Of a stretch of DNA of 38,406 nucleotides, positions 411-26,874 are shown piece after piece (position 1 is the first letter of the stretch; the number at the start of each line of letters is the position of its first letter). The translations under genes were made by a program, and so were the position numbers. The notes under the pieces are model-generated. The model had not been told where the DNA came from, ran no database searches, and saw only the letters and a list, made by a program, of their open reading frames with translations. Origin of the DNA: a virus; IMG/VR virus record IMGVR_UViG_3300037459_000028, positions 1 through 38,406 of that record; one strand, written 5' to 3'.

Positions 411-495
411 GGTTGTGTAGACACGTATGGATCGTGTTCGGACTGTAAATCCGATCCGAAAGGCAGCGTAGGTTCGATTCCTGCCACATCCACCA
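411..495 (+). tRNA. tRNA-Tyr (anticodon GTA)
   Basis: The segment starts with GGTTGTG, which pairs with CACATCC before the discriminator A and encoded CCA, with one T-T mismatch. The anticodon stem TCGGA/TCCGA holds loop CTGTAAA with GTA at 445-447. The T arm GTAGG/CCTGC has loop TTCGATT. The variable region is expanded, as expected for bacterial tRNA-Tyr. The D arm is irregular: the best pairing is ACAC/GTGT. The gene lies 11 bases after tRNA-Ser and was probably cotranscribed with it. Confidence 0.85.
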
Positions 496-2932: not shown

Positions 2933-3160
2933 ATGATGACCGATGAAATGAAATTGCTACGAGCTTTTATTAATGCTAGCGGGTATGAGATTGAAGAAGA
3001 TGTAAAAATTAAAACCCACGAAATTAACTATATGCAGCTGCACGGCATGACGCAGGAAGATAAAAACAAATGGACAAGTGGCAGTTCCGGCGGGATGGTG
3101 AGTAGAAAAGTCAGAACAGTGGATTACAAAGTAACAAAGAAAGAAGATAGCGACAATTAA
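2933..3160 (+). CDS. Hypothetical protein, paralogue of the gene at 8316-8600
   Basis: The 75-aa protein starts right after the previous stop, with AAGGGG as ribosome binding site. Its N-terminus (MTDEMKLLRAFINASGYEIE) and a YKVTKK segment near the end match the protein encoded on the opposite strand at 8316-8600. The two genes are therefore diverged copies of one family. The N-terminal part looks like an amphipathic helix. Function is unknown. Confidence 0.65.
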   Translation: MMTDEMKLLRAFINASGYEIEEDVKIKTHEINYMQLHGMTQEDKNKWTSGSSGGMVSRKVRTVDYKVTKKEDSDN

Positions 3161-3199: not shown

Positions 3200-3391
3200 A
3201 TGCAACCACATCAACAACGAGTAGTGACAGAGCTTAATGATTTAGCAGTTAAAACAGCCGCGCTAATTGATTTTATGCACGGTGATATTTACGCAGCGTT
3301 ACCGGCAGTTGAGCAAGGATTATTAATGGTTCAGTTAGTCGCTATGCAGAATTACGAGTCGGCACTAAACCGGCGGATTGAATTGTTTTAA
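3200..3391 (+). CDS. Conserved small phage protein (PHQQRV type), unknown function
   Basis: The 63-aa helical protein opens with MQPHQQRVV and ends in a MQNYESALNRRIELF helix. This pattern (PHQQRV, a Leu-rich helix, then an M-x-x-Y helix ending in RI-x-x-F) is familiar from small proteins of many gammaproteobacterial phages, and none has a known role that I can name. The start has CGAGGAAAATAAA upstream. A terminator follows at 3415. Confidence 0.65.
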   Translation: MQPHQQRVVTELNDLAVKTAALIDFMHGDIYAALPAVEQGLLMVQLVAMQNYESALNRRIELF

Positions 3392-3414
3392 TCTATCCGA
3401 TAAACAATAAACAA

Positions 3415-3442
3415 TAAAAAATCGCCTTAACTGGCGTTTTTT
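3415..3442 (+). terminator. Rho-independent terminator before the packaging genes
   Basis: A CGCC-TTAACT-GGCG stem is flanked by an A run upstream and six Ts at 3437-3442. It would end the 883-3391 transcript and, by symmetry, partly work in both directions. Confidence 0.75.
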
Positions 3443-3459
3443 CGTATCTATCAACCGTG

Positions 3460-3468
3460 TGTTACAAT
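3460..3468 (+). promoter_or_regulatory. Possible extended -10 promoter for the HNH/terminase genes
   Basis: TGTTACAAT contains TACAAT at 3463-3468 with an extended -10 TGn. No good -35 box is seen. It lies between the terminator at 3415 and the HNH start at 3490, where a new transcript would be expected. Confidence 0.3.
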
Positions 3469-3489
3469 AATGATTTACCGGAGAATGTC

Positions 3490-3924
3490 ATGCCTATCAT
3501 TGTAAATAAGAATAAAGAATACATTCTTGACAACTCCAAGGTTGTAGGTGAGTGTTGGGTATGGCAATCTAAACCTCATAAGTCTGGGTATGCTGCCGTT
3601 GTATGTGAAGAGAACTATGCCCACAGGCTAAGTTACAGGCTGCATAAAGGGGAGATACCATCTAATAAGTTTGTATGCCATACCTGCGATAACAGAATGT
3701 GTGTAAATCCAGATCACCTATGGTTAGGCACTCAATTAGAAAATATGATTGATGCTGCAAAAAAAGATAGAATGAGAACCAAACTAACTATTGAGGAGGT
3801 TCACGAAATAAGGGAGCTTCTATTTACTGAAATTTATAGCCAAGCAGAAATAGCTCGATGTTACAATATAAACCCATCAAACGTAAGTAGGATTAACAGC
3901 AATGAAAGGCGTAATCACGTCTAG
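3490..3924 (+). CDS. HNH endonuclease (HNH_3 type) with C-terminal HTH
   Basis: The 144-aa protein has the HNH_3 core: HRLSYRLHKGEIP, then VCHTCDNRMCVNPDHLWLGT (likely His45, His64, Asn73 and His76). The C-terminal part (LTIEEVHEIRELL, then SQAEIARCYNINPSNVSRI) reads as a helix-turn-helix that would choose the DNA target. The start at 3490 is chosen because CCGGAGAATGTC precedes it; the frame stays open upstream without a ribosome binding site. Genes of this kind beside a terminase are either homing endonucleases or helpers in packaging cleavage. The HTH tail and lone position favour homing. Confidence 0.85.
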   Translation: MPIIVNKNKEYILDNSKVVGECWVWQSKPHKSGYAAVVCEENYAHRLSYRLHKGEIPSNKFVCHTCDNRMCVNPDHLWLGTQLENMIDAAKKDRMRTKLTIEEVHEIRELLFTEIYSQAEIARCYNINPSNVSRINSNERRNHV

Positions 3925-3936
3925 GAGGATAGTCAC

Positions 3937-4041
3937 ATCCCTAAGCACACAAAATCAGAACGAGTAAAAAACATAGCAAACAAACGAAGAGCAGAAGCCA
4001 GGAAGATTGCAAGAAAGCCCAAACCAAAGACTAAGAAATAG
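3937..4041 (+). CDS. Tiny basic protein with strong RBS but non-canonical ATC start
   Basis: A perfect Shine-Dalgarno AGGAGG (3924-3929) overlaps the HNH stop and is followed, seven bases on, by ATC at 3937. An open frame of 34 codons runs from it to TAG at 4039-4041. The product would be very basic, rich in Lys and Arg, like many tiny phage DNA- or RNA-binding peptides. There is no ATG, GTG or TTG in frame. Either ATC initiates at low level or a former ATG was lost, in which case this is a fresh pseudogene. Confidence 0.45.
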   Translation: MPKHTKSERVKNIANKRRAEARKIARKPKPKTKK

Positions 4042-4059
4042 ATTGCCGGGGGCATCAAT

Positions 4060-4485
4060 ATGACCAAGCCTAAACTGACAGCAAAGCAACAAAGGTTCTG
4101 TGAGGAGTATTTGATAGATTTGAATGCTACTCAAGCGGCAATCAGGGCGGGCTATTCAGAGAAAACAGCAAGACAAACAAGCGCTGAGAACATGACAAAA
4201 CCTGTCATCGCTGAATTTATAGCTGAATTAAAGGCTATACGCAGCGACGAGGTGCGCATAGACGCCGCATGGGTACTCAAAAACGCTAAACGCGTCTTTG
4301 ATAGGTGCATGCAAGATGAGCCTGTTATGGTACAAGGGGAGCCTACTGGAGAATACAGGTTTGAACAGTCAGGAGCTAACAAGGCTTTAGAGATTATTGG
4401 CAAGCATGTTGACGTTCAGGCGTACAGTGAAAAGCAAGTCATTGTTGAAATGTCTCACGAACAATGGCTGGACTCACTCAAATGA
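4060..4485 (+). CDS. Terminase small subunit
   Basis: The 141-aa protein starts with LTAKQQRFCEEYLIDLNATQ followed by AAIRAGYSEKTARQ, the signature N-terminus of the Terminase_2 family (XtmA-like small terminases). There an HTH recognises the packaging site on concatemeric DNA. The C-terminal helix would form the oligomeric ring and bind the large subunit. It precedes the large subunit and overlaps it by four bases (ATGA), which suggests coupled translation. It fills the place of P22 gene 3, though that small terminase has a different sequence family. Confidence 0.92.
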   Translation: MTKPKLTAKQQRFCEEYLIDLNATQAAIRAGYSEKTARQTSAENMTKPVIAEFIAELKAIRSDEVRIDAAWVLKNAKRVFDRCMQDEPVMVQGEPTGEYRFEQSGANKALEIIGKHVDVQAYSEKQVIVEMSHEQWLDSLK

Positions 4486-6008
4486 ACGACATGGAAACTA
4501 GGCAGCGCCTCAAAGATGACTTCCACTTTTACGCTCGCAACTGCCTTAGCATAAGAACAAAAGGCAAAGGGCTGCAAAAGTTAGTACTGAACGACGCTCA
4601 AGAGTATATTCATAAGCGACTAGAAGAGCAGCGATCAAAGACCGGTAAAATAAGAGCAATTTTATTAAAGGGGCGTCAACAAGGCGCTTCAACTTATGTT
4701 GAGGGTCGATTCATTTGGCGAACCACTCACGAAAAAGGCGTTAGGGCATTTATACTTACTCACGACGGCGAGTCAACTAACGCGCTGTTTGAGATGACTG
4801 AGCGTTATTACGACAGCCTCCCTTCATTTGTTAAGCCAACCACCAGCGCGGCCAACGCCAAAGAGCTTCACTTTGATAAGCTCGACTCAGGCTATAAAAT
4901 TGGCACCGCAGGAAATAAGGCGGTAGGTCGAGGCCAAACAATCCAATACTTTCACGGCTCAGAGGTTGCGTTCTGGATGAATGCTAGCGAGCATACCAAA
5001 GGTATCATGCAGGCCGTACCCGATGCGGATGGAACAGAGGTGATATGGGAGTCAACTGCTAATGGCGTGGGTAACTTCTTTCATGAACAATGGAAGTTAG
5101 CAGAAAAGGGCTTGTCAGAATTTCAAGCTATCTTTGTTCCCTGGTATTGGCAATCTGAGTATAGAAAGATTACACCAGATGATTTCAGGCCGACGATGGA
5201 CGAGCAGGAATTAAAAGATCATTATGATATAGATAATCAACAAGTGTTCTGGCGCAGAATGAAGGTAGCTGAGCTAACTACTGACGGCGTTGATGGCATA
5301 AAGGCATTCAAGCAAGAATACCCAATGAACGCGGCAGAGGCGTTTCAAGTTTCTGGTGGTGACGGGTTGATAAACGCAGACCAATGTATGACAGCGAGGG
5401 GTAATACAGCTAACGGCAGTGGCCCGCTAATTGTCGGAGTTGACCCCTCAAGAGGCGGCGATAGGTTTGCCACTATAAAGCGCCAAGGTCGCAAGATGTA
5501 TGATATGCAATCATTTAAAGGTGAGCAATGTAATTCACTAGGTAAGAATGTTGCTATCTGTATTGAGCTACTGGACACTATTGACGCTGATGCAGGTAAA
5601 GTTCCTGACATGATGTTTATTGATGCCGGTGGCGGAGTTGACATTGTTGATAGGCTTCACGAGTTGGGTTATAAAAGTAGAGTAAAAGCGGTATACTTTG
5701 GATCATCCCCATTAAAGCCCAAGAAATACAAAAATAAGCGTAATGAGATGTGGGGCGAGATGGCCGACTGGCTTGTTGATGAAAGCTTACCAGCGGATAT
5801 ACCGGACGACGATGAATTACAGGCTGATTTGTGCGCCTCACCATACGATAGAGATTCAAATGATCGCCGAGTATTGTGGTCGAAAGATAAGATAAAATCA
5901 AAGTATGGCTTCAGTCCTGATTACGGGGATGCTGGGGCCTTAACGTTTACAGAGCCTGTAAATTTAAATAAAGTTACTAAACTGAAATTCAATTCCATTT
6001 GTAGGTAA
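4482..6008 (+). CDS. Terminase large subunit (packaging ATPase/nuclease)
   Basis: The 508-aa protein has a Walker A-like P loop KGRQQGAS (about residues 63-70), a Walker B-type strand near residue 160 (QYFHGSEVAFW) and a C-terminal RNase H-like nuclease. The likely nuclease acids lie in IVGVDPSRGGDR, in MMFIDAGGGVD and near the C-terminal DAGALTF. It powers headful packaging through the portal and cuts the DNA, as P22 gp2 does. The start at 4482 is chosen because it overlaps the small-subunit stop as ATGA; an in-frame ATG lies at 4464 with no ribosome binding site. Confidence 0.93.
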   Translation: MNDMETRQRLKDDFHFYARNCLSIRTKGKGLQKLVLNDAQEYIHKRLEEQRSKTGKIRAILLKGRQQGASTYVEGRFIWRTTHEKGVRAFILTHDGESTNALFEMTERYYDSLPSFVKPTTSAANAKELHFDKLDSGYKIGTAGNKAVGRGQTIQYFHGSEVAFWMNASEHTKGIMQAVPDADGTEVIWESTANGVGNFFHEQWKLAEKGLSEFQAIFVPWYWQSEYRKITPDDFRPTMDEQELKDHYDIDNQQVFWRRMKVAELTTDGVDGIKAFKQEYPMNAAEAFQVSGGDGLINADQCMTARGNTANGSGPLIVGVDPSRGGDRFATIKRQGRKMYDMQSFKGEQCNSLGKNVAICIELLDTIDADAGKVPDMMFIDAGGGVDIVDRLHELGYKSRVKAVYFGSSPLKPKKYKNKRNEMWGEMADWLVDESLPADIPDDDELQADLCASPYDRDSNDRRVLWSKDKIKSKYGFSPDYGDAGALTFTEPVNLNKVTKLKFNSICR

Positions 6009-6011
6009 ATT

Positions 6012-8297
6012 ATGCCAATAGAAATAGATTTTACAGAGCACTCTAACGTGCTAATCATGATTAAAGAGGCTCAAGAGTCAGAAGATGACACTCGCCAAGC
6101 AGTTAGAGAGGCCAAGCTATTTCTAACTAAGCGTGATGGTCAGTGGGACCCTTACGCATGGGCAAAGCTAGATGGTCGATTCCGTGGTACGTTTGACATG
6201 CTCACGCCTATTGTCGATCAAATATCCGGTGAGATTGATCAATCCGACTTTAGCCTAAAGGTATCTCCTGCCGGCGGTGATTCATCAGTAGAAACAGCTC
6301 AGACGTTAAACGGTCTCATTCGAAATATCCGCAACATATCAAACGCTGATCAAGTGTTTGCTCAGGCAGCTAGATCTAATGTGATTGGCGGCTTTGATGC
6401 GTGGGAAATAGTTCAAGACTGGGTTGACGGTGATGCATTCGATCAAGATCTGTTTATCCGCAAGATACCCAATGCGGTTGATAGCGTATGGTTTGATTTA
6501 GGCTCAGTAATGCAAGACCGCAGTGACGCGCAGTGGGGCGTTAAACTAATCGCGGTGCCAACGGCTAAGTATAATAAGGATTGGCCCGAAGGTTCCGGCT
6601 TAGGCGTTGCCGATGATAAGCAGGCTGAAGCTTACTTTAACAAGGCTGAGACCGTGGTTATTGGTCAACTATATTACAAAAAGCCTGTAAACATTGAACT
6701 AGTACGCATGACTAACGGCGCAGTGTACCGCGATAATGACGACTTTAAAAAGGTTCGGGACGAGCTAGCGCAGAAAGGTATCACTATCGAAGTTGATAAC
6801 GAGGGCAAAGAAAAGCGCAGAACTCGCAAATCATGGCGCGTTCACTCTCGCATGTTTGATGGTGGCGATTGGTTAAAAGAAGAAGAAAAGACGGTGTTCG
6901 ATTTTATCCCCATCGTACCTATTTACGGGAACTTTGACATATTCGAAAACAAATCCATCTATTACGGCAAACTTGAAAAGCTCTTTGACCACCAGCGCGT
7001 ATTAAATTATGCTATGAGTCGTGATATCGAGGACGGCGCGTTAAGCCCTAGCCCTGCTGTTTGGATGACCGAGACTATGATCGCCGGCCATGACTATTCA
7101 GAAATGAATACCGATCATGACCCTGTTAGAACATTTAATCCAGATCCTGAATTTCCAGGCTACGTACCAACGCTACAAGGCGGGCCAGTACAAAGCACAG
7201 GGCTACAAACAACCATCGCCAACATGCAACAGATGGTCGCTTCATCAGCTAACTCATTCAACGCATTACAAGGCAACGCCAATCCGGTGCAGAGCGGTAT
7301 TGCTGGAGGTCAGCAAATTGAGCAAGGTAACATTGGTTCAATTAAATGGTTTAAGGCCCTAGAAATACCCGTATGCCACACTGGAAGAATATTAATTAAT
7401 GCAATCCCTAGGGTGTACCCGGCAACAAGGCAAATAAGAATTCTCGAAGAGGATGGCACAAGTAAGATGGTATTAATTAACCAGCCTACATTCGATGAAG
7501 AGACGAAAACCAACGTTACTGTAAATGATTTAACTATTGGCGAATACGATGTTGTGTGCGACTTTGGCCCCGCATTTAATAGTCAGCAAAAAGAAACCGC
7601 TCAAGCGTTCCTCGATATGGCAGCAATCGACCCAACTATCGCACAGAAAGGCATGGACATTTGGCTTAAGAACTTAGCTGTTCCAGGCATGGACCAAATG
7701 GCCGAACGGTCAAGAGTTGAGTTGTTCAACGCTGGTTTAATCCCTGAGTCGCAATGGACCGATGAAGAGCAGCAACAAGCTCAAGCCGCGAAGGAAGCGG
7801 CGGCACAACAACCGCCTCAAGAAGACCCTAATCTAATACTAGCCAAGGCCGAAGAGCTTAAAGGCCAAGCTGATGTGGCTAACGCTCAAACCAAGCAGCA
7901 AGAAGCTCAATTCAATGCGCAAGTTAAAGCAGCGAACATCCAGTTAGAACAGGATAAAATCGCGTTGAAGCGTGAAGAGTTACAGTTAGACGTTGCTAAG
8001 TTTGAGCGAGAGAATAGCAACAAGTTTAATGTCGAAGCAGCTAAGATTGATCAAGGTCAACAAAAAATTGATATGCAAGCGCAGCAGCAACAGTTTGATA
8101 TCTTCCTTGACCAACAAAAGCAGCAGCAACAGGAGATTAACGACGCTATAAATAACCTTAAGACTTTACGTGAGGCGATGGGAGTCGATAGTATAGTTGG
8201 CCCGGGTACAACAGGGGCATTTATCAATCAAAGCAGGAAAGTAATAGACGCTCAGGATGTTGACGATAAGTTAGATCCCGAGCTTCCTAATCAGTAG
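6012..8297 (+). CDS. Portal protein, P22 gp1-like
   Basis: The 761-aa protein is close in length to P22 gp1 (725 aa) and fits its family. The N-terminal region (WDPYAWAKLDGRFRGTFDM) is typical of P22-type portals, which form the dodecameric DNA channel at one capsid vertex. From about residue 600 the chain is strongly Gln- and Ala-rich with heptad-like helices (EEQQQAQAAKEAAAQ, then LDQQKQQQQEI). This matches the long helical barrel of P22 portal that reaches into the capsid. It starts three bases after the terminase stop. A bidirectional terminator follows the stop codon. Confidence 0.92.
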   Translation: MPIEIDFTEHSNVLIMIKEAQESEDDTRQAVREAKLFLTKRDGQWDPYAWAKLDGRFRGTFDMLTPIVDQISGEIDQSDFSLKVSPAGGDSSVETAQTLNGLIRNIRNISNADQVFAQAARSNVIGGFDAWEIVQDWVDGDAFDQDLFIRKIPNAVDSVWFDLGSVMQDRSDAQWGVKLIAVPTAKYNKDWPEGSGLGVADDKQAEAYFNKAETVVIGQLYYKKPVNIELVRMTNGAVYRDNDDFKKVRDELAQKGITIEVDNEGKEKRRTRKSWRVHSRMFDGGDWLKEEEKTVFDFIPIVPIYGNFDIFENKSIYYGKLEKLFDHQRVLNYAMSRDIEDGALSPSPAVWMTETMIAGHDYSEMNTDHDPVRTFNPDPEFPGYVPTLQGGPVQSTGLQTTIANMQQMVASSANSFNALQGNANPVQSGIAGGQQIEQGNIGSIKWFKALEIPVCHTGRILINAIPRVYPATRQIRILEEDGTSKMVLINQPTFDEETKTNVTVNDLTIGEYDVVCDFGPAFNSQQKETAQAFLDMAAIDPTIAQKGMDIWLKNLAVPGMDQMAERSRVELFNAGLIPESQWTDEEQQQAQAAKEAAAQQPPQEDPNLILAKAEELKGQADVANAQTKQQEAQFNAQVKAANIQLEQDKIALKREELQLDVAKFERENSNKFNVEAAKIDQGQQKIDMQAQQQQFDIFLDQQKQQQQEINDAINNLKTLREAMGVDSIVGPGTTGAFINQSRKVIDAQDVDDKLDPELPNQ

Positions 8298-8303
8298 ATG
8301 ATA

Positions 8304-8325
8304 AAAGCCCTTTAATTAGGGCTTT
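8304..8325. terminator. Bidirectional terminator between portal and the leftward block
   Basis: AAAGCCCT-TTAATT-AGGGCTTT forms an 8-bp stem with A and T runs on the two sides. It lies between the converging portal gene and the leftward gene whose stop codon (8316-8318) sits inside the hairpin. It should end both transcripts at least partly; late transcription would need antitermination or a new promoter to reach the scaffold gene. Confidence 0.7.
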
Positions 8326-8600
8326 ATTAATTGCGATATTTCTTCGTATAAATCAGTTCCTAAATAATTTAAAGCCCCTTCATCACTCATGATCCGCTTT
8401 AAAACACCGACCGTGTCGACGCCCTTCTTTGTTACTTTGTATTCTGTCGTCATTATAATACTAGCTGGTAAGGCGTTTTCTTTTGGTTCCCCATCGATGC
8501 AATCGGCAATATTATACATCTCCTTTCTATCTTGTATTGACTCAACATCAAACCCGCTCGCCTCAATAAAGGCCATTAGTAATTTCATTTCGTTAGTCAT
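8316..8600 (-). CDS. Hypothetical protein, paralogue of the gene at 2933-3160
   Basis: The 94-aa protein begins MTNEMKLLMAFIEASGFDVE and contains YKVTKK, matching the protein at 2933-3160. It carries an extra C-terminal segment of about 40 residues (VLKRIMSDEGALNYLGTDLY). GGAG lies six bases before the chosen ATG; two more in-frame ATGs lie just upstream. It is the last gene of the leftward block. A copy of the 14-bp dyad motif lies at 8621-8634, 20 bases upstream of its start. Function is unknown. Confidence 0.65.
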   Translation of the reverse strand: MTNEMKLLMAFIEASGFDVESIQDRKEMYNIADCIDGEPKENALPASIIMTTEYKVTKKGVDTVGVLKRIMSDEGALNYLGTDLYEEISQLIKP

Positions 8601-8611
8601 CATCATCTCCA

Positions 8612-9004
8612 TTAAAACACATCAGTTAAGTGATTTAGTTGCATTCCGTATGCTGCGCCGAGCATTCCTAATCCAGCCGTTCTTTGACCTAAACCTAAGC
8701 CACCTGCATAGCCAAATTGAGAGTTTGCAAGGCCACGCGCGCCCATAGCTGCCATTTGTGATTGCTGACTAGCAAAGAGTTGCCCGCAAGCTAAAGCCTG
8801 TTGATTAGCCTGTTGGCGAGCGAGCTCAACTAACCAATATTCCTTAGCTTGATGCCTAGAGACTGGGGCACCTTTAACCTTCAATCTAATGTGTGGCTTC
8901 TTGGCATAAATACTAACAAACCGTTTCTTCTTTGCTCCAAAGAAGTCTAGTTGCTCATATAGTCGCTTTTGCTCTCTTACTTCGTGCTTAGTTAATCTTG
9001 TCAT
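8612..9004 (-). CDS. Basic N-terminus plus Gln/Ala/Gly-rich C-terminus protein
   Basis: The 130-aa product has a basic N-terminal half (KKKRFVSIYAKKPHIRLKVK). Its second half is rich in Gln, Ala and Gly with MGARGLANSQFGYAGG-type sequence, which resembles the low-complexity style of the ejection proteins at 17065-18708. A strong GGAGGTACTAGCG precedes the ATG at 9004. It could be a structural or ejected protein encoded outside the tail cluster; that is inference. It overlaps the upstream gene by 17 bases. Confidence 0.6.
   Translation of the reverse strand: MTRLTKHEVREQKRLYEQLDFFGAKKKRFVSIYAKKPHIRLKVKGAPVSRHQAKEYWLVELARQQANQQALACGQLFASQQSQMAAMGARGLANSQFGYAGGLGLGQRTAGLGMLGAAYGMQLNHLTDVF
8621..8634. 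repeat. Dyad-symmetric 14-bp motif, copy 3
   Basis: The reverse complement ATCAGTTAAGTGAT occurs at 8621-8634, inside the end of the 130-aa leftward gene and 20 bases before the start of the gene at 8600. It matches the copy at 34796 over 18 bases. Confidence 0.6.
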
Positions 9005-9308
9005 CGCTAGTACCTCCATCGCCATCGACGCTTGAATACGGAGTAGGTCGCCTAATTGTTATTGTGTCCGTGCTATTCTCGCTCAGGCCATCTTTAAATG
9101 ATGCGTAAGCAATGTTTGTAATAACACTGGTGAATATTCTTAGATACCACGGAATTCTTAAGGTGGTTTTACTAAACTTTAATTTCTTTTCAGCTTCCAT
9201 TTTCTGAAATGTATTCTCAGATTGAAATGAATTTAAAAAACTTCTTTGCGAACTTTCGTTAAATAGATTTAAAAGTTTTCTTGTTGCATCACTTGGATAT
9301 TCGCTCAT
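8988..9308 (-). CDS. Hypothetical protein with a hydrophobic segment
   Basis: The 106-aa protein has one moderately hydrophobic stretch (WYLRIFTSVITNIAYASF) that may be a membrane or amphipathic helix. An acidic, Gly-rich tail follows. GGAGGGTGTTAGTG precedes the ATG at 9308. It overlaps its neighbours on both sides, as the whole leftward block does. No family is recognised. Confidence 0.6.
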   Translation of the reverse strand: MSEYPSDATRKLLNLFNESSQRSFLNSFQSENTFQKMEAEKKLKFSKTTLRIPWYLRIFTSVITNIAYASFKDGLSENSTDTITIRRPTPYSSVDGDGGTSDDKIN

Positions 9309-9468
9309 CACTAACACCCTCCATTAACTTATCTGGATCAGCACCCGCAGCGACAGCAGCCTCAATGAACTGCTCCAACATCTGCATAGCATCAGAAGCT
9401 AAAACAAAGACTTCTTTGTGTAGTTGCGGTGACTTGTTTAATTCTCTGAGTTTGTATTGTTTAATCAT
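9289..9468 (-). CDS. Small helical protein, unknown
   Basis: The 59-aa product is mostly helical, with MLEQFIEAAVAAGADPDKLM near its C-terminus. GGGG seven bases upstream supports the ATG at 9468; another in-frame ATG lies at 9471. It overlaps the downstream gene by 20 bases and the upstream one by 8. Confidence 0.55.
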   Translation of the reverse strand: MIKQYKLRELNKSPQLHKEVFVLASDAMQMLEQFIEAAVAAGADPDKLMEGVSDERISK

Positions 9469-9685
9469 CATCTAACCCCAATTCTTTAAGTAAACTTTCT
9501 GTAAATTTCTCTTCTTCTTCACTACCTTCTACGCAAGCGTAACAAGCGGCCATAGTTAAAAACTTAACCAGCTTCTCGTGATAATTAACAGCCTTTTCAA
9601 TATATGCCCAATCGATGGTTATATTGCTATCACTATTGGATACGTTTACCTGTAGGTGTTTACCCATTGTTATACTATTGATCAT
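9461..9685 (-). CDS. Small acidic protein, unknown
   Basis: The 74-aa protein starts at 9685, where GGAG stands eight bases upstream. The first 30 residues look like a beta strand pair and the rest helical, with an acidic end (EGSEEEEKF and LGLDDD). It carries two cysteines. It is part of the overlapping leftward block and no function is recognised. Confidence 0.6.
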   Translation of the reverse strand: MINSITMGKHLQVNVSNSDSNITIDWAYIEKAVNYHEKLVKFLTMAACYACVEGSEEEEKFTESLLKELGLDDD

Positions 9686-9687
9686 TC

Positions 9688-9834
9688 TTATATCTCCATA
9701 TTCCACATTTCGATGCACTCATCACATAGAAGTTGCTTTGTGTTATCTTGATATGTCTCATTAAGATAAGGGTTCTCCCTGAGAGTTACGCTTTGTTTTT
9801 CCTCGCCACATTCATCACACTTTAAATCGCTCAC
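9688..9834 (-). CDS. Small zinc-ribbon-like protein, GTG start
   Basis: The 48-aa ORF starts with GTG at 9834, overlapping the upstream stop by four bases (GTGA), and AAGGAGGTAGAGGA lies just before it. Two CxxC pairs (CDEC at 6-9 and CDEC at 37-40) with 27 residues between them indicate a zinc ribbon. Such phage proteins often bind nucleic acid or host proteins. The next gene starts three bases downstream. Its exact role is unknown. Confidence 0.65.
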   Translation of the reverse strand: MSDLKCDECGEEKQSVTLRENPYLNETYQDNTKQLLCDECIEMWNMEI

Positions 9835-10151
9835 TCCTCTACCTCCTTACCGTCAATATCAACTAAGCATGCGTGTATAGGAGTAACCTCACCCCTCAAG
9901 AATGTTAATTGTATGCGTGGGCTGTCATTGTTATTTTGATCAATCGGCATGCCAGTGTATCTAGCCATTGTTTCCTTATTAAAAATCACAGAAGGCATTT
10001 CAGTTAGATTTTGCAACTCAATAATAGAATCAAACGCCTCCATATATCTACTTAAATACTCTTGCATGGCTCTAATTGTTTCACCATGCAATGCGCCGGT
10101 CATTATTGGCTTTTCTGTTTTAGTTCCAAGTAGCGCCTTCAATACATTCAT
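9831..10151 (-). CDS. Hypothetical protein
   Basis: The 106-aa protein starts at 10151 with AAGGAGATAGGGTG upstream and shares one base with the preceding stop (TGATG). A helical middle region (TIRAMQEYLSRYMEAFDSII) precedes a short beta-like C-terminus. It is translated as part of the leftward block. No family is recognised. Confidence 0.6.
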   Translation of the reverse strand: MNVLKALLGTKTEKPIMTGALHGETIRAMQEYLSRYMEAFDSIIELQNLTEMPSVIFNKETMARYTGMPIDQNNNDSPRIQLTFLRGEVTPIHACLVDIDGKEVEE

Positions 10152-10321
10152 CACCCTATCTCCTTAATCTCAAGCCCTCGACACATGCACAATAACTGCG
10201 CTTTCATTTTCTCATTGCGGCACTTTCTGCGCCATACATCATATCTAACACCCCAATGCTTACACGCTTCTTTAACAGTCCAGCCTTTAGCGTGGATTAT
10301 ACTTGTATATTTGCAGGTCAT
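10151..10321 (-). CDS. Small HTH-like Cys-rich protein, first gene of the leftward block
   Basis: The 56-aa ORF from 10321 is basic. Its KGWTVKEACKHWGVRYDVWR stretch reads as a helix-turn-helix: an alpha helix, a Gly turn, then a recognition helix with Trp. A similar arrangement (KGWT, then WG followed by R and W) is seen in small phage proteins that may bind DNA. Being promoter-proximal, it could autoregulate the block through the inverted repeat at 10336-10352. That role is inference. Confidence 0.6.
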   Translation of the reverse strand: MTCKYTSIIHAKGWTVKEACKHWGVRYDVWRRKCRNEKMKAQLLCMCRGLEIKEIG

Positions 10322-10335
10322 ATTTAATCCTTGGT

Positions 10336-10352
10336 ATAGGCGAATTGCCTAT
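10336..10352. promoter_or_regulatory. Inverted repeat, possible operator of the leftward block
   Basis: ATAGGC-GAATT-GCCTAT is a perfect 6-bp inverted repeat with a 5-base spacer. It lies between the leftward promoter and the first gene start at 10321. It could be an operator or a leader hairpin. Confidence 0.5.
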
Positions 10353-10360
10353 CTATAGCG

Positions 10361-10389
10361 AGGATAGCAAAACCTTTATAATATAACAA
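10361..10389 (-). promoter_or_regulatory. Promoter of the leftward block
   Basis: On the minus strand TTGTTA (10384-10389) and TATCCT (10361-10366) are separated by 17 bases. Transcription would start near 10355 and read the eight genes from 10321 to 8316. On the plus strand, TATAAT at 10377-10382 overlaps it but has no good -35 box; it might serve the scaffold gene. Confidence 0.6.
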
Positions 10390-10450
10390 GGTCAACAGCT
10401 AACCTTAATAGCTGCTCAGTCGAAAGACTATGCCTTAAAGGTCGATAAAC

Positions 10451-11263
10451 ATGAGTGATACTCCGCAAAACGATTCTGTTGGGTCAGAAGTAATTGAGCA
10501 ACAAGTCGAAATAAATGATTCTATCCTAGCCTCGGAAACTGGGGAGCAAGTTCAAGCTGAATCGAATGGACAAGTTGATGAAGCTGAGTTAGCAAAACAA
10601 AAGTCTAACGAGGCGTTTAATAAGCAGTATGGACAGCTTAAGCAGGCAGAGCGAGATAATGCAGCGTCAGCCGCTAGAATCGCAGAGCTTGAAAAGGCTG
10701 ATCGAGAACGCCAAGCGGCAGCAGTCGGAGAAATCCCACCAATGCCTGATGCTTTTGATGATGATTTCGACGCTAAAATTAAGCAGCGCGATGAGGCAAT
10801 TATTGCCCAAGCTAATTTTAACAATAGCAATCAGATTTATTTGCAACAGCAACAGAATCAACAACAGTTAGCGCAGCAACAGAAGCAAGAGCAAATTCAG
10901 CAGTCAATGCAAAGCTACAGCAGTAAAGCTTTAGAGTTAGGCATTAAGCAGGATGAATTGCAAGCAGCAGGAAGCGCAGTAGCACAATATGGATTATCAG
11001 ATGATTTGGTTATGCATATTTTAGGTGATGCAGATGGCCCATTAATTACAAAGCACTTAGCGGCTAACCCGCAAGAAGGCTTTGAATTGGCACAAATGTC
11101 ACCCTTTGCAGTGGGTTCCAAACTTGACTCAATTCGAGCTAAAGCAGCAGCGCTAAAACCGAAACAAAGCAACACCCCAGACCCTGCAACTAATTTGCAA
11201 GGTAATGGAGCAGACCCTGAAGCTGGTAAATACAAGCATATCAAGGGTGCTAAATTTGAATAA
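10451..11263 (+). CDS. Scaffolding protein, P22 gp8-like by position
   Basis: The 270-aa protein has the usual build of a scaffold: an acidic N-terminus, a Gln-rich coiled coil in the middle (QIYLQQQQNQQQLAQQQKQE) and a basic C-terminus (GKYKHIKGAKFE) that could bind coat. P22 gp8 has 303 aa and acts inside the procapsid, then leaves. It lies directly upstream of the coat gene, as in P22. AAAGG precedes the ATG. The AGTC-GAAA-GACT hairpin just upstream may affect translation. Sequence similarity to P22 gp8 is not obvious by eye, so the call rests on composition and position. Confidence 0.8.
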   Translation: MSDTPQNDSVGSEVIEQQVEINDSILASETGEQVQAESNGQVDEAELAKQKSNEAFNKQYGQLKQAERDNAASAARIAELEKADRERQAAAVGEIPPMPDAFDDDFDAKIKQRDEAIIAQANFNNSNQIYLQQQQNQQQLAQQQKQEQIQQSMQSYSSKALELGIKQDELQAAGSAVAQYGLSDDLVMHILGDADGPLITKHLAANPQEGFELAQMSPFAVGSKLDSIRAKAAALKPKQSNTPDPATNLQGNGADPEAGKYKHIKGAKFE

Positions 11264-11277
11264 TATGGAGGCCACTC

Positions 11278-12555
11278 ATGGCTAATAATTTCGACAGTAA
11301 TTTTACGCGCAAATTGATGCGCTCATTCTTGGATAAGTTCGAATCCGAACGAGTCTTAACTAAAAACGTTAATACCCAACTTTTTGCTGGTAAGTTCAAC
11401 GGTTCAACTGGTGATAAAATTGATGTTAAACGTCCGACTGATTACGTAACAGTAAGAACACCAGAAGGTGATTTAACGTCTAAAACACCGAGCGACATCA
11501 TCACCGGCAAGGCAACTGCCACCGTGCAAGATTACTTTACTGCCTTTGTTGATTTCGATGAAGCAGACGAAGCGATCAAGATGGACCAACTTGACGAGTT
11601 GCTAGCACCAATGGCAACTCGAATGAAAACCGATTTCGAGTTAGATTACGCCAAGTTTATGAAAAATAACTCAGGTCTATTATCTGGTACATACGGATCC
11701 CCAGCCCTTAAGTGGGATGATATCGCAGCCTATGGCTCTATTTTAGATGCGACAGGCGTCCCTCGTGATGCAAAATGGAACGTTGCTGTTAACCCATTTA
11801 CTCAGCGTAAGTTAGCAAGCGATCAGCGTAGCTTAGGTGCTGGCGGTACGGCTGGCGGTTTAATCTCCGAAGCGCATCGAGAAGCTATCATAGCTGATAA
11901 CTTTGCAGGCCTTAAGGTTATGTCTGCCAACACGTTAGGTAGTAATACTATCGCGGCAGGTGCTGACCGGGCAGGTACAATTACAAGCGTTGACGTTACT
12001 TACTTAACAGCTAAAGACACCATGACGCAAAGCATTACAGTTGCAGCCTTCACTAATGATTTAGTCATTAAAGCCGGTGAAGTTTTGCGTGTAACTGGTC
12101 GTAATCGTCTAAACCTATCGACTCGGGAGTTAATTCTTGATGAGACAGGCGCGGTTATTCTGTTCAGCGGTACGGTTGTTTCTGATGTTACCTTGTCAGC
12201 TACAGGTACGGGTGTGATTGTTATTACCGGCCCTGCAATCTTTGAAGCTGCTGGTCAATACAACACAACTAGCTCAGCTATCGCGGCATCTGATGTTATT
12301 ACCCTGCTAGGTGCAGCGGGTGACATTATTCAGCCTAATTTGTTCTGGCACCCTCAAGCGTTTACGGTCGCTTCGGTTCCAATCAAGAAGCTTCAATCTG
12401 TTGACACTATTGCAACTACTGAAGATGGTTTACAGTTCCGAGTTTCTAAAGGTTCAGACTTTATCAAGAACCAGCAGAAGGTGCGTATCGATTTCCGCCC
12501 AGCTTACGGTGTTATGAATCCGTTCTTCGCTGGCCAAGGTTTCGGTACTCCTTAA
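11278..12555 (+). CDS. Major capsid (coat) protein, P22 gp5-like
   Basis: The 425-aa protein is close to the 430 aa of P22 coat. Its N-terminus (NTQLFAGKFNGSTGDKIDVK then RPTDYVTVRTPEGDL) matches the style of the P22_CoatProtein family, an HK97 fold with an inserted I-domain. It assembles with the scaffold into T=7 procapsids. TATGGAGGCCACTC precedes the ATG. A TTCG-loop hairpin follows the stop. Confidence 0.92.
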   Translation: MANNFDSNFTRKLMRSFLDKFESERVLTKNVNTQLFAGKFNGSTGDKIDVKRPTDYVTVRTPEGDLTSKTPSDIITGKATATVQDYFTAFVDFDEADEAIKMDQLDELLAPMATRMKTDFELDYAKFMKNNSGLLSGTYGSPALKWDDIAAYGSILDATGVPRDAKWNVAVNPFTQRKLASDQRSLGAGGTAGGLISEAHREAIIADNFAGLKVMSANTLGSNTIAAGADRAGTITSVDVTYLTAKDTMTQSITVAAFTNDLVIKAGEVLRVTGRNRLNLSTRELILDETGAVILFSGTVVSDVTLSATGTGVIVITGPAIFEAAGQYNTTSSAIAASDVITLLGAAGDIIQPNLFWHPQAFTVASVPIKKLQSVDTIATTEDGLQFRVSKGSDFIKNQQKVRIDFRPAYGVMNPFFAGQGFGTP

Positions 12556-12569
12556 TAACCACAACAAGT

Positions 12570-12590
12570 GAGGGGTTCGCCCCTCCTTTT
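12570..12590 (+). terminator. TTCG-loop hairpin after the coat gene (partial terminator?)
   Basis: GAGGGG-TTCG-CCCCTC forms a perfect 6-bp stem followed by CTTTT. With only four Ts it would be a leaky terminator or an RNA-stabilising end, leaving more coat mRNA than downstream mRNA. Confidence 0.55.
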
Positions 12591-12609
12591 AATTTGTGAG
12601 GGTAATAAA

Positions 12610-12810
12610 ATGTCAGATCAAGAAGAGAAGTTAACCACTATCTACAAGCCTAACGGTAAGCCATTAAAGGTTAATCAACATATGGTTGCCTGCCTAAAGC
12701 GTGGCGACGAAAGTTTAGACGGTTTTTCTTTTAAAAATCCAAAAGCTAAAAGCCAAAAGCCAAATGCCGGGGACCCGGAACCAGAGCCAGAGCAAGAAGA
12801 TAAAAATTAA
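12610..12810 (+). CDS. Small Pro/Glu-tailed protein after coat
   Basis: The 66-aa protein begins with an ordered half (KLTTIYKPNGKPLKVNQHM) and ends in a Lys-, Pro- and Glu-rich tail (DPEPEPEQEDKN). GAGGGTAATAAA precedes the ATG at 12610. P22 has no gene here; the position next to the coat gene in other phages often holds a head decoration or completion protein. It is flanked by two TTCG hairpins, so its level may be set separately. Function is unknown. Confidence 0.65.
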   Translation: MSDQEEKLTTIYKPNGKPLKVNQHMVACLKRGDESLDGFSFKNPKAKSQKPNAGDPEPEPEQEDKN

Positions 12811-12814
12811 CCAA

Positions 12815-12830
12815 AGGGGCTTCGGTCCCT
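12815..12830 (+). other. TTCG-loop hairpin before the gp4-like gene
   Basis: AGGGGC-TTCG-GTCCCT forms a 6-bp stem with one G-T pair and a stable tetraloop. No T run follows, so it is more likely an RNA-processing or translation-control element than a terminator. Confidence 0.5.
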
Positions 12831-12850
12831 AACTAATTTATGGGTGAATA

Positions 12851-13339
12851 ATGTCTGAGACAGCAGAAGAACTATTTGGAGACTCATTACAGGCGATACT
12901 GGTCCAGGCATCAGAGCAACCAATTCAGCCCGTTGATTTTCAAACAGCAAGGCGATACGCCAATAGAATGATGGCGTCATTTGCCGCTAGCGGAATTAAT
13001 CTAGGCTATACAAACATAGTTGAACCGACTGATTTGGTAACTATTCCAGATGGCGCCACTGAAGGGTTGCTATTTAATTTGGCCGTTCGGATGCTGCCGA
13101 CGTATGACTTCCCATTAACGGCAGAGTTAAGAGAGAATGCGCGGGAAGGTAAAGACGCGATGCGTAAGCTTGCCATCTTTATCAAGCCAACCAGATTCCC
13201 TTGTACATTACCTATTGGTTCAGGCAATGAAGGTGAGAACACGTTTAATACCGATAGATTCTTCCCATGTCCAGAAGATGAGTTATTAACAGAGCAAGGC
13301 GGTTCGATACTGCTGGAGAGCAACACCCATGAGCCATAG
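12851..13339 (+). CDS. Head-to-tail adaptor, P22 gp4-like tail accessory factor
   Basis: The 162-aa protein matches P22 gp4 in length (166 aa) and position. Its core reads FQTARRYANRMMASFAASG, then DLVTIPDGATEGLLFNLAVR, then LRENAREGKDAMRKL. This is the style of the P22_Tail-4 family, which binds as a dodecamer under the portal and starts tail assembly. Some homologues have peptidoglycan-cutting activity; I see no motif to claim it here. It overlaps the next gene by 11 bases. Confidence 0.9.
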   Translation: MSETAEELFGDSLQAILVQASEQPIQPVDFQTARRYANRMMASFAASGINLGYTNIVEPTDLVTIPDGATEGLLFNLAVRMLPTYDFPLTAELRENAREGKDAMRKLAIFIKPTRFPCTLPIGSGNEGENTFNTDRFFPCPEDELLTEQGGSILLESNTHEP

Positions 13340-14894
13340 CCAAAAGATTAGCGACTTTACAAATCAAGCATTATTGCAAGGCTCGGACTTAATAACATTC
13401 GTTCGTTCTGGCACGAATTTCAATGTGTCTTTTACAAACTTTATTGCTTCGCTTGGTGTAACCGGCACGCTGACGCCTATTGGCGATCCGTCTGGCTCTC
13501 CGGTACTTAATCAGCCATCAGCAGGCATCAATGAGATTCGAAACATTGAATCATCAAAAGGCATTATCACAAGTATCAGTCCTCAAGACGGCGTAAACGT
13601 AGCCGCAAATTTTGTACAGGGTGCGGCAGGCGTCCAGCTCATTAAAGATTTAACTCTAGATCAATACTTTTTTAGATCTATCGTTGCTGGCACTGGAATT
13701 AATGTGTCGTCAACCGGCGACTCAATACAGATAACAGCAATTGCGGCGGTGGCATCAACAAAGACGGTGATCATATCTGTCGAAGCTGACTTCCCTACAG
13801 CGGTTGCAGGGGTTATAACACTTGTTGCTGACACGCAATATTTATTAGTTCAGGATGTTGTAACCGCTAATAGATTCGTAATGAACGAACTTACAACGAT
13901 TGCCGGGACTGAATCGTTGAACATTTTATTCACATATACCGGCACAGGCGATATGTTTACGGGTGTTAATGTTGCTAATAGAATTAGTACCATGTCGATT
14001 AGCTGCGCTAACGGCAGGATTTTAAACTGGTCAACTAATGTATTTAAAATCTTCCGCATGAATGATGTCACAATTAAAGCGTGTGACAAAATAGCGCTAA
14101 TGAATAGTGTTGGTGGCGTTGGCGTTTGTCGCTTCACTAACGTCAGCCCGTCCATTATAACTACAGATGGATTTGAGCTTACGGGTGATTGGAATACGTT
14201 TTTACATGAGATTTCATCAGCCTCAATTTCAGGCGGTGCATATTTTAACTTAGGGACGGCAACATTTAAATCGTTTATAGCAGATTTGCCCCTTATTAAT
14301 TTAGATGCTGGAACAACTCTGCTTAGCGGCGCGGCTAGCTCTGCCAATATTGCCGCGGGCGGAGTGGGCATATTAACTAGGTCAATAACTACCGGAGCGG
14401 GCGCGCCTCTTGCTGGCATTACTGTAGATGATGCTTTATGGAATTTTGATTTAAACTCAGACATTGCAAATACCAGGCCCGATGGTTTGCTTTCGATGCA
14501 GGGAAACGCAATAAACACAACTATAACCACTGCGGGTGTAGGTGTTTTAGTTGCTGGCACATGGGTAGTCGAAACAATAAGCCAAATGTCAGGAACTACT
14601 GCTGGAAAATTGACTTATGACGGCGGTAAAAATGCAAAACTACCATTAACGGGAAGTATCACTGTAGCCCCCGTAAGTGGGGGAGCCCAAAATATAGGGA
14701 TACAAATTGCAATTAACGGAGTCGCTGTTGCTAATTCATTAAGAGTCCAATCTGTAAGTCCTGGCAATCCTTTAACTATTGATGTGCATTGGCAGGAAGA
14801 CCTAGCTACCACTAACACCGTGGAGATATTTGTTTCAAATGAATCAACAACAACTGATGTTTTAGTTTCTTCTGGCATATCGAGGGTGAACTAA
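13329..14894 (+). CDS. Beta-rich fibre/decoration-like protein inserted between gp4 and gp10 homologues
   Basis: The 521-aa protein has no counterpart in P22. The N-terminal 45 residues (KISDFTNQALLQGSDLITFV) resemble short anchor segments found at the start of phage fibre proteins. The rest is rich in Thr, Ser, Gly, Val and Ile with short repeated turns, as in beta-helix or trimeric fibre shafts. The C-terminal part (about residues 400-521) looks like a compact jelly-roll. It may decorate the head or neck or bind receptors. GGAG lies 12 bases before the ATG and the gene overlaps gp4 by 11 bases. Confidence 0.7.
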   Translation: MSHSQKISDFTNQALLQGSDLITFVRSGTNFNVSFTNFIASLGVTGTLTPIGDPSGSPVLNQPSAGINEIRNIESSKGIITSISPQDGVNVAANFVQGAAGVQLIKDLTLDQYFFRSIVAGTGINVSSTGDSIQITAIAAVASTKTVIISVEADFPTAVAGVITLVADTQYLLVQDVVTANRFVMNELTTIAGTESLNILFTYTGTGDMFTGVNVANRISTMSISCANGRILNWSTNVFKIFRMNDVTIKACDKIALMNSVGGVGVCRFTNVSPSIITTDGFELTGDWNTFLHEISSASISGGAYFNLGTATFKSFIADLPLINLDAGTTLLSGAASSANIAAGGVGILTRSITTGAGAPLAGITVDDALWNFDLNSDIANTRPDGLLSMQGNAINTTITTAGVGVLVAGTWVVETISQMSGTTAGKLTYDGGKNAKLPLTGSITVAPVSGGAQNIGIQIAINGVAVANSLRVQSVSPGNPLTIDVHWQEDLATTNTVEIFVSNESTTTDVLVSSGISRVN

Positions 14895-25377: not shown

Positions 25378-25402
25378 GCCCATCATATCGATGGGCTTTT
25401 TT
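25378..25402 (+). terminator. Rightward terminator inside the leftward operon
   Basis: GCCCATC-ATATC-GATGGGC forms a 7-bp stem followed by six Ts on the plus strand. The genes on both sides read leftward and no T run exists in that direction. It would stop plus-strand (antisense) transcripts and let the operon read through. The Dam stop codon lies within its T run. Confidence 0.65.
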
Positions 25403-25976
25403 ATATGGTACCTAAATCAATTAATTCATTTCTATCAATCATTCGAACAACACAAGGCATTTTCGACGGCCTGAATATTACGAACATTGATCCTTTAGTA
25501 TTGCCATTAATTTTCTTGCCAGTGATCGGATGGTAAAAGCTTAGCCTGCCGCCTGTTACAATTCGAATTTCAGATATTTCATTAATTGGTAGCCATTGGG
25601 CATCTAACGTTGCTGGTACCAACAAAACAGAAGTAACACCTTTGGCTTTTTCTTCAATGCATTTATTCATGAATTTTTTAATAAAACCTTTGCCATAAGG
25701 CGGGTTGATCCACACAGTTTTATCTCGGTACCCGCCAACATATTTAGACCAGTCAACATTTAGCGCGTCATCCTCCTTGGTTAAAAAGGTTGGTACCTTA
25801 TAGTTCTTATCACTGGATGCCGCGTCTAAGGCAAAATTAAACTCACGATCCAAAGCTCTAAATATTACAGGGTCGGTACCCCAGCTATTTTTCATGTCAG
25901 CATCTAAATCTGAGTTGATAATGTCGCCATTATTGTTGGTACCTAAATAAATTTGCTCTAAAATATTATGTTTCAT
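25401..25976 (-). CDS. Phage DNA N-6-adenine methyltransferase
   Basis: The 191-aa protein has the features of the phage Dam family (PF05869): FNFALDAASSDKNYKVPTFL, then the catalytic NPPYG (residues 91-95), then a LVPATLDAQW strand. It methylates the N6 position of adenine with SAM as donor. The start at 25976 follows AGGACAAGTGGAA; an in-frame GTG at 25982 is the alternative. It probably protects phage DNA from host restriction or marks replicated DNA. Confidence 0.88.
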   Translation of the reverse strand: MKHNILEQIYLGTNNNGDIINSDLDADMKNSWGTDPVIFRALDREFNFALDAASSDKNYKVPTFLTKEDDALNVDWSKYVGGYRDKTVWINPPYGKGFIKKFMNKCIEEKAKGVTSVLLVPATLDAQWLPINEISEIRIVTGGRLSFYHPITGKKINGNTKGSMFVIFRPSKMPCVVRMIDRNELIDLGTI

Positions 25977-25994
25977 TTCCACTTGTCCTATTAT

Positions 25995-26630
25995 TTAAAC
26001 CAGCTTACCTGCCCATTGGTTAGCCATTGCTTTTGCTATGCCAGGGAATGTTTTACTCCTATCTTTTGCGCTATCCCATGCTTTGTATATTGGTAACGCG
26101 GATTTTTTTCTTGTTCCATCCTTTAGCAATCCACCCCGGGTGCTATTAGAGGTGTAATGATACAGCGCCTCAACCAGGTCGGAATTCATCAATCGAGGTA
26201 AACCCTTTAACCATAAGCACGTTCTTTTTTTGAATGGATCGCCAAATTGGAAAGGATTTACTATCTGGTCAGGTTTTCGCCATGACGTATTTAATTTACC
26301 TGTGGGGTTTTCTATCGCTATCATCTGGCAATCAGCATCGCGTATTTTATAAACAAAATCTATCGCCGCTTGTTGCCTTCCGTCTGCTTGCTTTTGTTTC
26401 CAACTTGGCGCGCCTGCCGCGCTTAAGTGAGTGCATGGAGGAAATGCAATTATCATGTCCCACCCATCGTTTAATATTTTAAGTACATCCCCTTTAACGT
26501 GCCACTCAGGATGACCGCCACTGCAATCTTGAGTGTCTGCGCTAAATGCCTCATGCCCAAGCTTTCTTAATTCAATTGTTACCGCTTGGCTTTCTTCGCA
26601 GGCTACTAATATTTTCATTTTATTACTCAT
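25995..26630 (-). CDS. Small DNA cytosine-C5-methyltransferase-like protein
   Basis: The 211-aa protein has an SAM-binding start (KILVACEESQAVTIELRKLG), the PPC catalytic motif (FPPCTHLS, Cys66) and an IENP motif (residues 106-109), in the order of C5-cytosine methyltransferases. It lacks a long target-recognition domain, as do short phage members of this group, so its target is unclear. The start at 26630 has GGCGG eight bases upstream; a longer open frame reaches back over the neighbouring gene and is unlikely. Together with the Dam gene it may mask restriction sites. Confidence 0.82.
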   Translation of the reverse strand: MSNKMKILVACEESQAVTIELRKLGHEAFSADTQDCSGGHPEWHVKGDVLKILNDGWDMIIAFPPCTHLSAAGAPSWKQKQADGRQQAAIDFVYKIRDADCQMIAIENPTGKLNTSWRKPDQIVNPFQFGDPFKKRTCLWLKGLPRLMNSDLVEALYHYTSNSTRGGLLKDGTRKKSALPIYKAWDSAKDRSKTFPGIAKAMANQWAGKLV

Positions 26631-26640
26631 TTTTAGCCGC

Positions 26641-26874
26641 CTAGATTTGTTTGAGTGGTGGTAGCGATTTAGGATCCGCGCCGGCGGCGATCTCTGCTTT
26701 GCGTTGGTCCCAAGTAATTTTGAACTTATCGCGACTATCGATGCCCAGCATTTTGTTAAAGGCAGTAATTTGACCTGACTGCTTGACTGCTGCATCTCTA
26801 CATCCTGGTACATCCTTTAACTTATGGATGATTGGCCCGGCCATACATATCATTGTTATATTTGCTAAAAGCAT
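26641..26874 (-). CDS. Small protein with hydrophobic N-terminus, unknown
   Basis: The 77-aa protein begins MLLANITMICMAGPIIHKLK, a short hydrophobic segment that may be a weak membrane anchor. A polar helical part with a WDQRKAEIAAGADP segment follows. AAAGGGGAATAAC precedes the ATG at 26874, which decides against the ATG at 26901. A copy of the 14-bp dyad motif lies 27 bases upstream (26902-26915). Confidence 0.6.
   Translation of the reverse strand: MLLANITMICMAGPIIHKLKDVPGCRDAAVKQSGQITAFNKMLGIDSRDKFKITWDQRKAEIAAGADPKSLPPLKQI

Follow-up and report, generated by a model that had tools for sequence, protein, structure and literature searches.

An exchangeable antisense gene block between portal and scaffold in a P22-like phage, with an RNA pseudoknot at its border

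We analysed a virus record of 38,406 nucleotides (IMG/VR record IMGVR_UViG_3300037459_000028, positions 1 to 38,406; 'the window' throughout), whose head genes are P22-like and run in the order terS, terL, portal, scaffold, coat, and whose portal–scaffold interval is occupied by a block of eight small leftward genes. The block is a real, variable accessory-gene operon with a helix-turn-helix (HTH) leader gene, and is of the moron or accessory-slot kind already known. In its complete form our reading, to which we give a probability of roughly 0.7, is that the interval from the portal stop to the scaffold leader serves as an accessory-gene slot, filled by an antisense, moron-like operon of exchangeable genes that would be autoregulated by its own HTH protein. 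At the border of this slot the scaffold leader carries an RNA pseudoknot, which is more surprising than the antisense block itself. The observations behind these statements are the layout of the genes, their turnover among relatives, the conservation of the HTH gene (gene H), the enrichment of a leftward promoter upstream of it, the conservation of a palindrome near the leftward start and the covariation of the pseudoknot stems.

Layout and conservation of the leftward block

Between the portal stop (8297) and the scaffold start (10451), eight leftward open reading frames (ORFs) cover 99.9% of 8316-10321; six of their seven junctions overlap and the remaining one is a gap of 2 bases. The initial annotation had described eight overlapping or nearly overlapping leftward ORFs at this place, and all are present. 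Read from the portal side, the borders and genes are as follows.

6012..8297, plus strand: portal gene, left slot border (portal relatives in 229 phage records)
8316..8612, minus strand: gene A, 98 residues, final gene of the block, with a rightward paralogue at 2933-3160
8612..8998, minus strand: gene B, 128 residues, C-terminus rich in Gly/Ala/Gln, with homologues in the same slot of relatives L005, L040, L044 and L101
8988..9308, minus strand: gene C, 106 residues, one clear homologue (48% identity), located in the L052 slot
9289..9471, minus strand: gene D, all-helical small protein of 60 residues, the most recurrent cargo family
9461..9685, minus strand: gene E, orphan of 74 residues, from the ORF layout
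9688..9834, minus strand: gene F, zinc-ribbon-like protein of 48 residues with two CxxC motifs
9831..10151, minus strand: gene G, orphan of 106 residues, its ORF overlapping gene H
10151..10321, minus strand: gene H, HTH protein of 56 residues, first gene of the block, from its predicted structure and conservation
10451..11263, plus strand: scaffold gene, right slot border (PHROG head scaffolding protein, E 4.9e-26)

Gene H, the promoter-proximal gene that had been called HTH-like from its sequence, is given four helices (residues 4-11, 16-23, 27-34 and 37-48) in an HTH arrangement by a confident AlphaFold (AF2) model with a mean predicted local distance difference test score (pLDDT) of 87, and the ratio of nonsynonymous to synonymous substitution rates (dN/dS) among its relatives has a median of 0.11, indicative of strong purifying selection. 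A resemblance of gene H to Aca1 in Foldseek was insignificant (E ~4) and was not used as evidence. The gene D family comprises 27 ORFs in the fetched loci, some of which overlap, with a median dN/dS of 0.30; the AF2 model of the window protein reaches a pLDDT of 79 and had no significant structural match in the PDB. For the zinc-ribbon family the median dN/dS among relatives is 0.25, and the zinc ribbon in the relatives' blocks is FmdB-like. The low dN/dS of these three families supports the coding status of the block.

Of the zinc ribbon proposed for gene F, only CxxC motifs are seen; profile searches gave no family at the cut-off, and the loci searched held one weak homologue. Gene B had been likened to ejection proteins; its low complexity is evident and no homology to ejection proteins was found. 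Homologues of gene E were not found in the loci searched, nor were relatives of gene G there or in the viral-contig search. Since homologues are few or lacking, genes E, F, G and C are taken as real mainly from the ORF layout. Gene A and its paralogue at 2933-3160 (plus strand) match both by DNA and by hidden Markov model; the paralogue lies upstream of terS, so that the gene A family occurs on both strands of one genome.

Occupancy of the slot among relatives

Presence or absence of the block was assessed in 72 contigs with both borders, collected from portal, H-protein and coat scans. The slot is near-empty in 39 of them (12-294 b) and holds an antisense block with H nearest the scaffold in 15. 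In 7 the antisense block lacks a detectable H, and the remaining 11 have inserts of other kinds, mostly in the sense direction; the largest insert reaches 11 kb. Fixation of these leftward genes in all relatives would have contradicted the initial annotation, and they are variable. On a coat-protein tree of 65 of the 72 contigs, the four slot states need at least 20 changes, and the well-supported branches force at least 10 changes of the empty state and at least 7 of the H-bearing state; this count measures exchange and not gain or loss alone, because recombination between coat and slot would raise it. One relative (L053) has a coat protein 90% identical to that of the window, yet its slot is 700 b long with different cargo. 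The 107 antisense proteins found in slots fall into 66 families, 57 of them singletons: small families recur behind H (D, zinc ribbon, A and B), and the other genes are mostly unique. Between portal and antisense block, three relatives also carry large sense genes of no assigned function (L007, 6965-9484; L003, 3990-6101; L063, 968-2128; all plus strand).

Some of the cargo in sister slots can be named. In L063 an N6/N4 DNA methylase (E 1.3e-35) adjoins H, and the slot of L049 holds NAPRTase/NAMPT, PRPP synthetase, TerC, TerD, an HD hydrolase (HD_4) and an RlaP-like nucleotidyltransferase. DNA methylation and NAD+ salvage are means by which phages withstand restriction and NAD+-depleting defences, and on the strength of the methylase and NAD+-salvage genes in sister slots a counter-defence role of the slots, and of the window block, is plausible. 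The L049 insert (3260-14195, 11 kb, part of a 54-kb virus record of a P22-like phage), which also carries an RtcB-like gene, could be a NAD+-salvage island or an assembly effect.

Antisense blocks are also found at other junctions. A module of H and zinc ribbon lies antisense between terL and portal in L034, L035, L038 and L039, members of another podovirus group (the terL of L034 is 77% identical to that of the window). Blocks of leftward small genes without detectable relation to that of the window were seen in three further phages: Pseudoalteromonas phage H6/1 has one at the portal–scaffold position, Shewanella phage ZP9 one between gp4 and gp10 (L141, 5108-6682, minus strand) and Escherichia phage C130_2 one at the terL–portal junction (L149, 108-442, minus strand). 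With blocks at portal–scaffold, gp4–gp10 and terL–portal, several junctions of podovirus head clusters thus take antisense accessory genes. For podoviruses of aquatic bacteria, the slot offers a simple route to uncharacterised accessory genes, which may include anti-defence genes, the places to look being the antisense strand beside scaffold, or the terL–portal interval, close to an HTH gene.

Control region of the block

The following elements flank the block.

8304..8325, both strands: candidate bidirectional terminator hairpin between portal and block (fold z -2.8 and -3.2)
10336..10352, strandless: operator-like palindrome ATAGGC-N5-GCCTAT (ATAGGCGAATTGCCTAT), a perfect inverted repeat near the leftward +1
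10361..10389, minus strand: leftward sigma-70-like promoter TTGTTA-17-TATCCT, 8 of 12 consensus matches
10377..10382, plus strand: candidate -10 element TATAAT of a promoter reading rightward into scaffold, 5 b ahead of the pseudoknot
10388..10414, plus strand: H-type pseudoknot in the scaffold mRNA leader, AAGGT-caa-CAGCTA-ACCTT-aa-TAGCTG, from its rate against controls and covariation

Because a consensus scan of the window alone left the leftward promoter at chance level, relatives were compared: leftward promoters score better in front of H-bearing blocks than in slots that are empty (Mann-Whitney p = 4e-5, approximate, as the compared sequences are related and non-independent). The promoter that the initial annotation had assigned to the block is therefore weak by itself and gains its standing from this enrichment. 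The bidirectional terminator it had also proposed is more stable than shuffled sequences on the two strands; its T-tract is short and the scan did not call it.

The inverted repeat, noted earlier at the same place, is exact. With up to two mismatches allowed, chance alone would supply roughly one site of this kind per window, and the weight of the palindrome comes instead from its exact conservation: the window, L003 and L063 carry the identical sequence at corresponding positions. The H proteins of these three phages have RYDVWRRKCR in common, around the third helix, and phages with other H types have different sequences at the palindrome position. This pairing is the pattern that an autorepressor and its operator would give, and binding of H to the palindrome is predicted from it.

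The rightward TATAAT, which overlaps the leftward promoter and which, like the pseudoknot, had escaped the initial annotation, lies 5-8 b ahead of the pseudoknot in 10 of 13 H-bearing relatives. Core H-bearing phages have a rightward -35 inferior to that of empty-slot phages (p = 0.008, with few independent cases). Overlapping promoters together with a poor -35 would be in keeping with promoters that exclude each other, or with assistance of the scaffold promoter by H.

A working scheme can be assembled from these elements. Host RNA polymerase would transcribe the block leftward from the sigma-70-like promoter just upstream of H, and H would bind the palindrome at the start site and so repress its own operon. 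The genes behind H would be exchanged between phages, most likely as counter-defence or host-modifying functions, which some of the sister-slot cargo fits. Scaffold would be expressed from its own start, with the -10 element followed directly by the pseudoknot leader, and it is because scaffold appears to have its own start that the slot would tolerate inserts.

A pseudoknot in the scaffold leader

The pseudoknot was found in 62 of 80 scaffold leaders, 5' of the ribosome binding site, and most relatives retain it, those with an empty slot as well as those with a full one. When leaders and controls were scored identically, 76% of 74 scaffold leaders reached the pass mark of 18, whereas the pass rate was 6% for coat leaders, 4% for portal leaders, 0% for terL leaders and 6% for random positions in portal. 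Compared with dinucleotide shuffles of the individual leaders, the excess is moderate (mean z 1.7). The architecture is constant across the 62 leaders, among which the first stem comes in 34 different sequences and the second in 38. Lengths of second stem and first loop are coupled in 53 of the 62 (4 bp with 1 nt, 5 with 2, 6 with 3), and the second stem follows an A in 56, has C as its first base in 60 and G as its last in 61. In the two length classes, cells with both sides changed number 54 against 15.8 in shuffled alignments and 28 against 6.2, above all 500 shuffles in each. As both covariation alignments were built from the elements found, omitting the third loop, the percentage of paired positions is partly circular, and the evidence is the rate against controls and these double changes. 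The case for the pseudoknot is made by its rate, its constant position and its covariation.

A simple hairpin was considered as the fold of the scaffold leader and was replaced by the pseudoknot, as both stems covary; taken by itself, the window leader shows no significant nested fold (z -0.9). The element is also present in Vibrio phage 340E47.2, H6/1, Sf6, HK620, Sf101, Sodalis phage phiSG1, Shewanella phage ZP9 and a distant spring podovirus, and was not found in the group with terL–portal blocks (L034, L035, L037, L039). A P22 candidate at -41, CGGC-a-GTGT-a-GCCG-ag-ACAC, has a broken second stem in the related phage Louie and is not claimed. Rfam gave no relevant family at the gathering score for the window region and eight relatives. 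In the clade of the window a further small hairpin (GTCGAAAGAC), its loop often GAAA, lies at 10415-10437 (plus strand) between the pseudoknot and the Shine-Dalgarno site.

By analogy with known phage operators, the pseudoknot may be a translational operator for scaffold, acted on by the scaffold protein or another factor. A broader proposal, which we put forward tentatively and consider somewhat doubtful as a whole, is that it is a widespread cis-regulatory RNA upstream of scaffold across P22-like phages (marine relatives, Vibrio and Shewanella phages, and Lederbergviruses of the Sf6/HK620/Sf101 type), kept in structure and not in sequence, that the scaffold protein would bind it and shut off its own translation, and that in H-bearing phages the divergent overlapping promoters would tie this switch to an exchangeable counter-defence operon.

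Alternative explanations

Several results weigh against the accessory-slot reading. No profile family above threshold was found for any of the eight window proteins in PHROGs, Pfam, NCBIfam or PADLOC, so that the profile search suggested in the initial annotation named none of them, and gene H had no significant structural match to the PDB in Foldseek. The consensus promoter and terminator scan of the window alone called neither the leftward promoter nor the hairpin, and antisense slots without detectable H show no leftward promoter enrichment. Such slots make up 7 of 22, so H is not universal, and in L005 another small gene precedes H. Moreover, nearly all the compared genomes are metagenomic contigs. 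The view that the ORFs are mis-called in a spacer can point to several genes with few or no homologues and to a promoter that, taken alone, is at chance; tiled overlap, homologues on the same strand in the same slot of relatives and dN/dS well below 1 speak so strongly to the contrary, for H, D, C, B and A above all, that we regard this view as scarcely credible.

The block might instead be mainly a regulatory switch, in which H, perhaps with other small proteins, controls the late genes through the overlapping rightward scaffold promoter, in the manner of Cro/CI or P22 immI, with the variable genes hitchhiking. The overlap of leftward promoter and rightward TATAAT and the position of the palindrome upstream of the rightward promoter are consistent with this, as is the poorer rightward -35 in core H-bearing phages, as if H assisted scaffold transcription; however, many close relatives without the block still keep the scaffold leader, the -35 difference comes from few independent comparisons, and cargo turnover is high, which together make a switch unlikely as the main function. 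Converging transcription and the hairpin between portal and block could likewise suggest that the leftward transcript is chiefly an antisense RNA that damps readthrough from portal to scaffold, its proteins being secondary. This is very improbable, given that the block overlaps neither portal nor scaffold, that the recurrent ORFs are under purifying selection, that the ORFs together tile almost the entire block, and that other phages have other ORFs in the slot rather than non-coding DNA.

Comparison with known systems

The accessory-slot reading places the block beside the morons and accessory hotspots of tailed phages, which are likewise separately transcribed genes between late structural genes that vary among close relatives. 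Presence and absence at the same junction in close relatives is evident here from the near-empty slots and the changes on the coat tree, and a promoter of its own emerges from the comparison of relatives, being weak in the window. The block differs in that it is an antisense operon of several genes, the one towards scaffold being a conserved HTH gene, and in that the module recurs at two junctions of podovirus head clusters (portal–scaffold and terL–portal).

With acr-aca operons it shares small cargo of no named function, an HTH protein of small size and a promoter palindrome, here a putative operator exact in two relatives. Aca genes are usually promoter-distal, whereas H is promoter-proximal in the window; H matched no Aca family in PADLOC, NCBIfam, Pfam or PHROGs, and no cargo is known as a CRISPR blocker. 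The P22 immI region (mnt, arc, ant, sieA) similarly combines regulatory and accessory genes inside the late cluster, some on the opposite strand; its location is different, and profile searches did not link the window proteins to immI genes.

For the pseudoknot, the closest likeness is the T4 gene 32 operator, in which a 5' pseudoknot of ~28 nt nucleates binding of the gene's own product, the ribosome site lying beyond it in a stretch with less structure (PMC535899). The scaffold-leader element is alike in size, in lying near the predicted 5' end of the message and in preceding the ribosome site; it differs in standing before a scaffold gene, protein binding is only predicted, and no sequence relation is claimed. 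The P22 scaffold gene has been reported to be autoregulated (Wyckoff and Casjens 1985, cited as reference 45 in PMC5744158). This is the same gene, and explaining its autoregulation needs a cis-element, for which the pseudoknot, lying outside curated RNA families, is a concrete candidate; in P22 itself, by contrast, the leader's own candidate is the one disrupted in Louie. Our literature searches returned no description of the slot or the pseudoknot; subscription papers fell mostly outside them, so that novelty is relative to the literature searched and Rfam.

Genome context

The source is probably a marine P22-like phage. Its closest GenBank relative is Pseudoalteromonas phage vB_PspP-H6/1 (portal 42%, coat 61% identity); a scan of genome contigs gave six contigs, all from metagenome-assembled genomes, so the host is not reliably assignable. 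No integrase domain was found in the record. The recognisable replication genes (24-30 kb) are leftward too, and two neighbouring leftward ORFs in that region match DNA methyltransferase (25401-26813, minus strand). A tRNA-Tyr gene (411-495, plus strand) lies close to the left end of the record.

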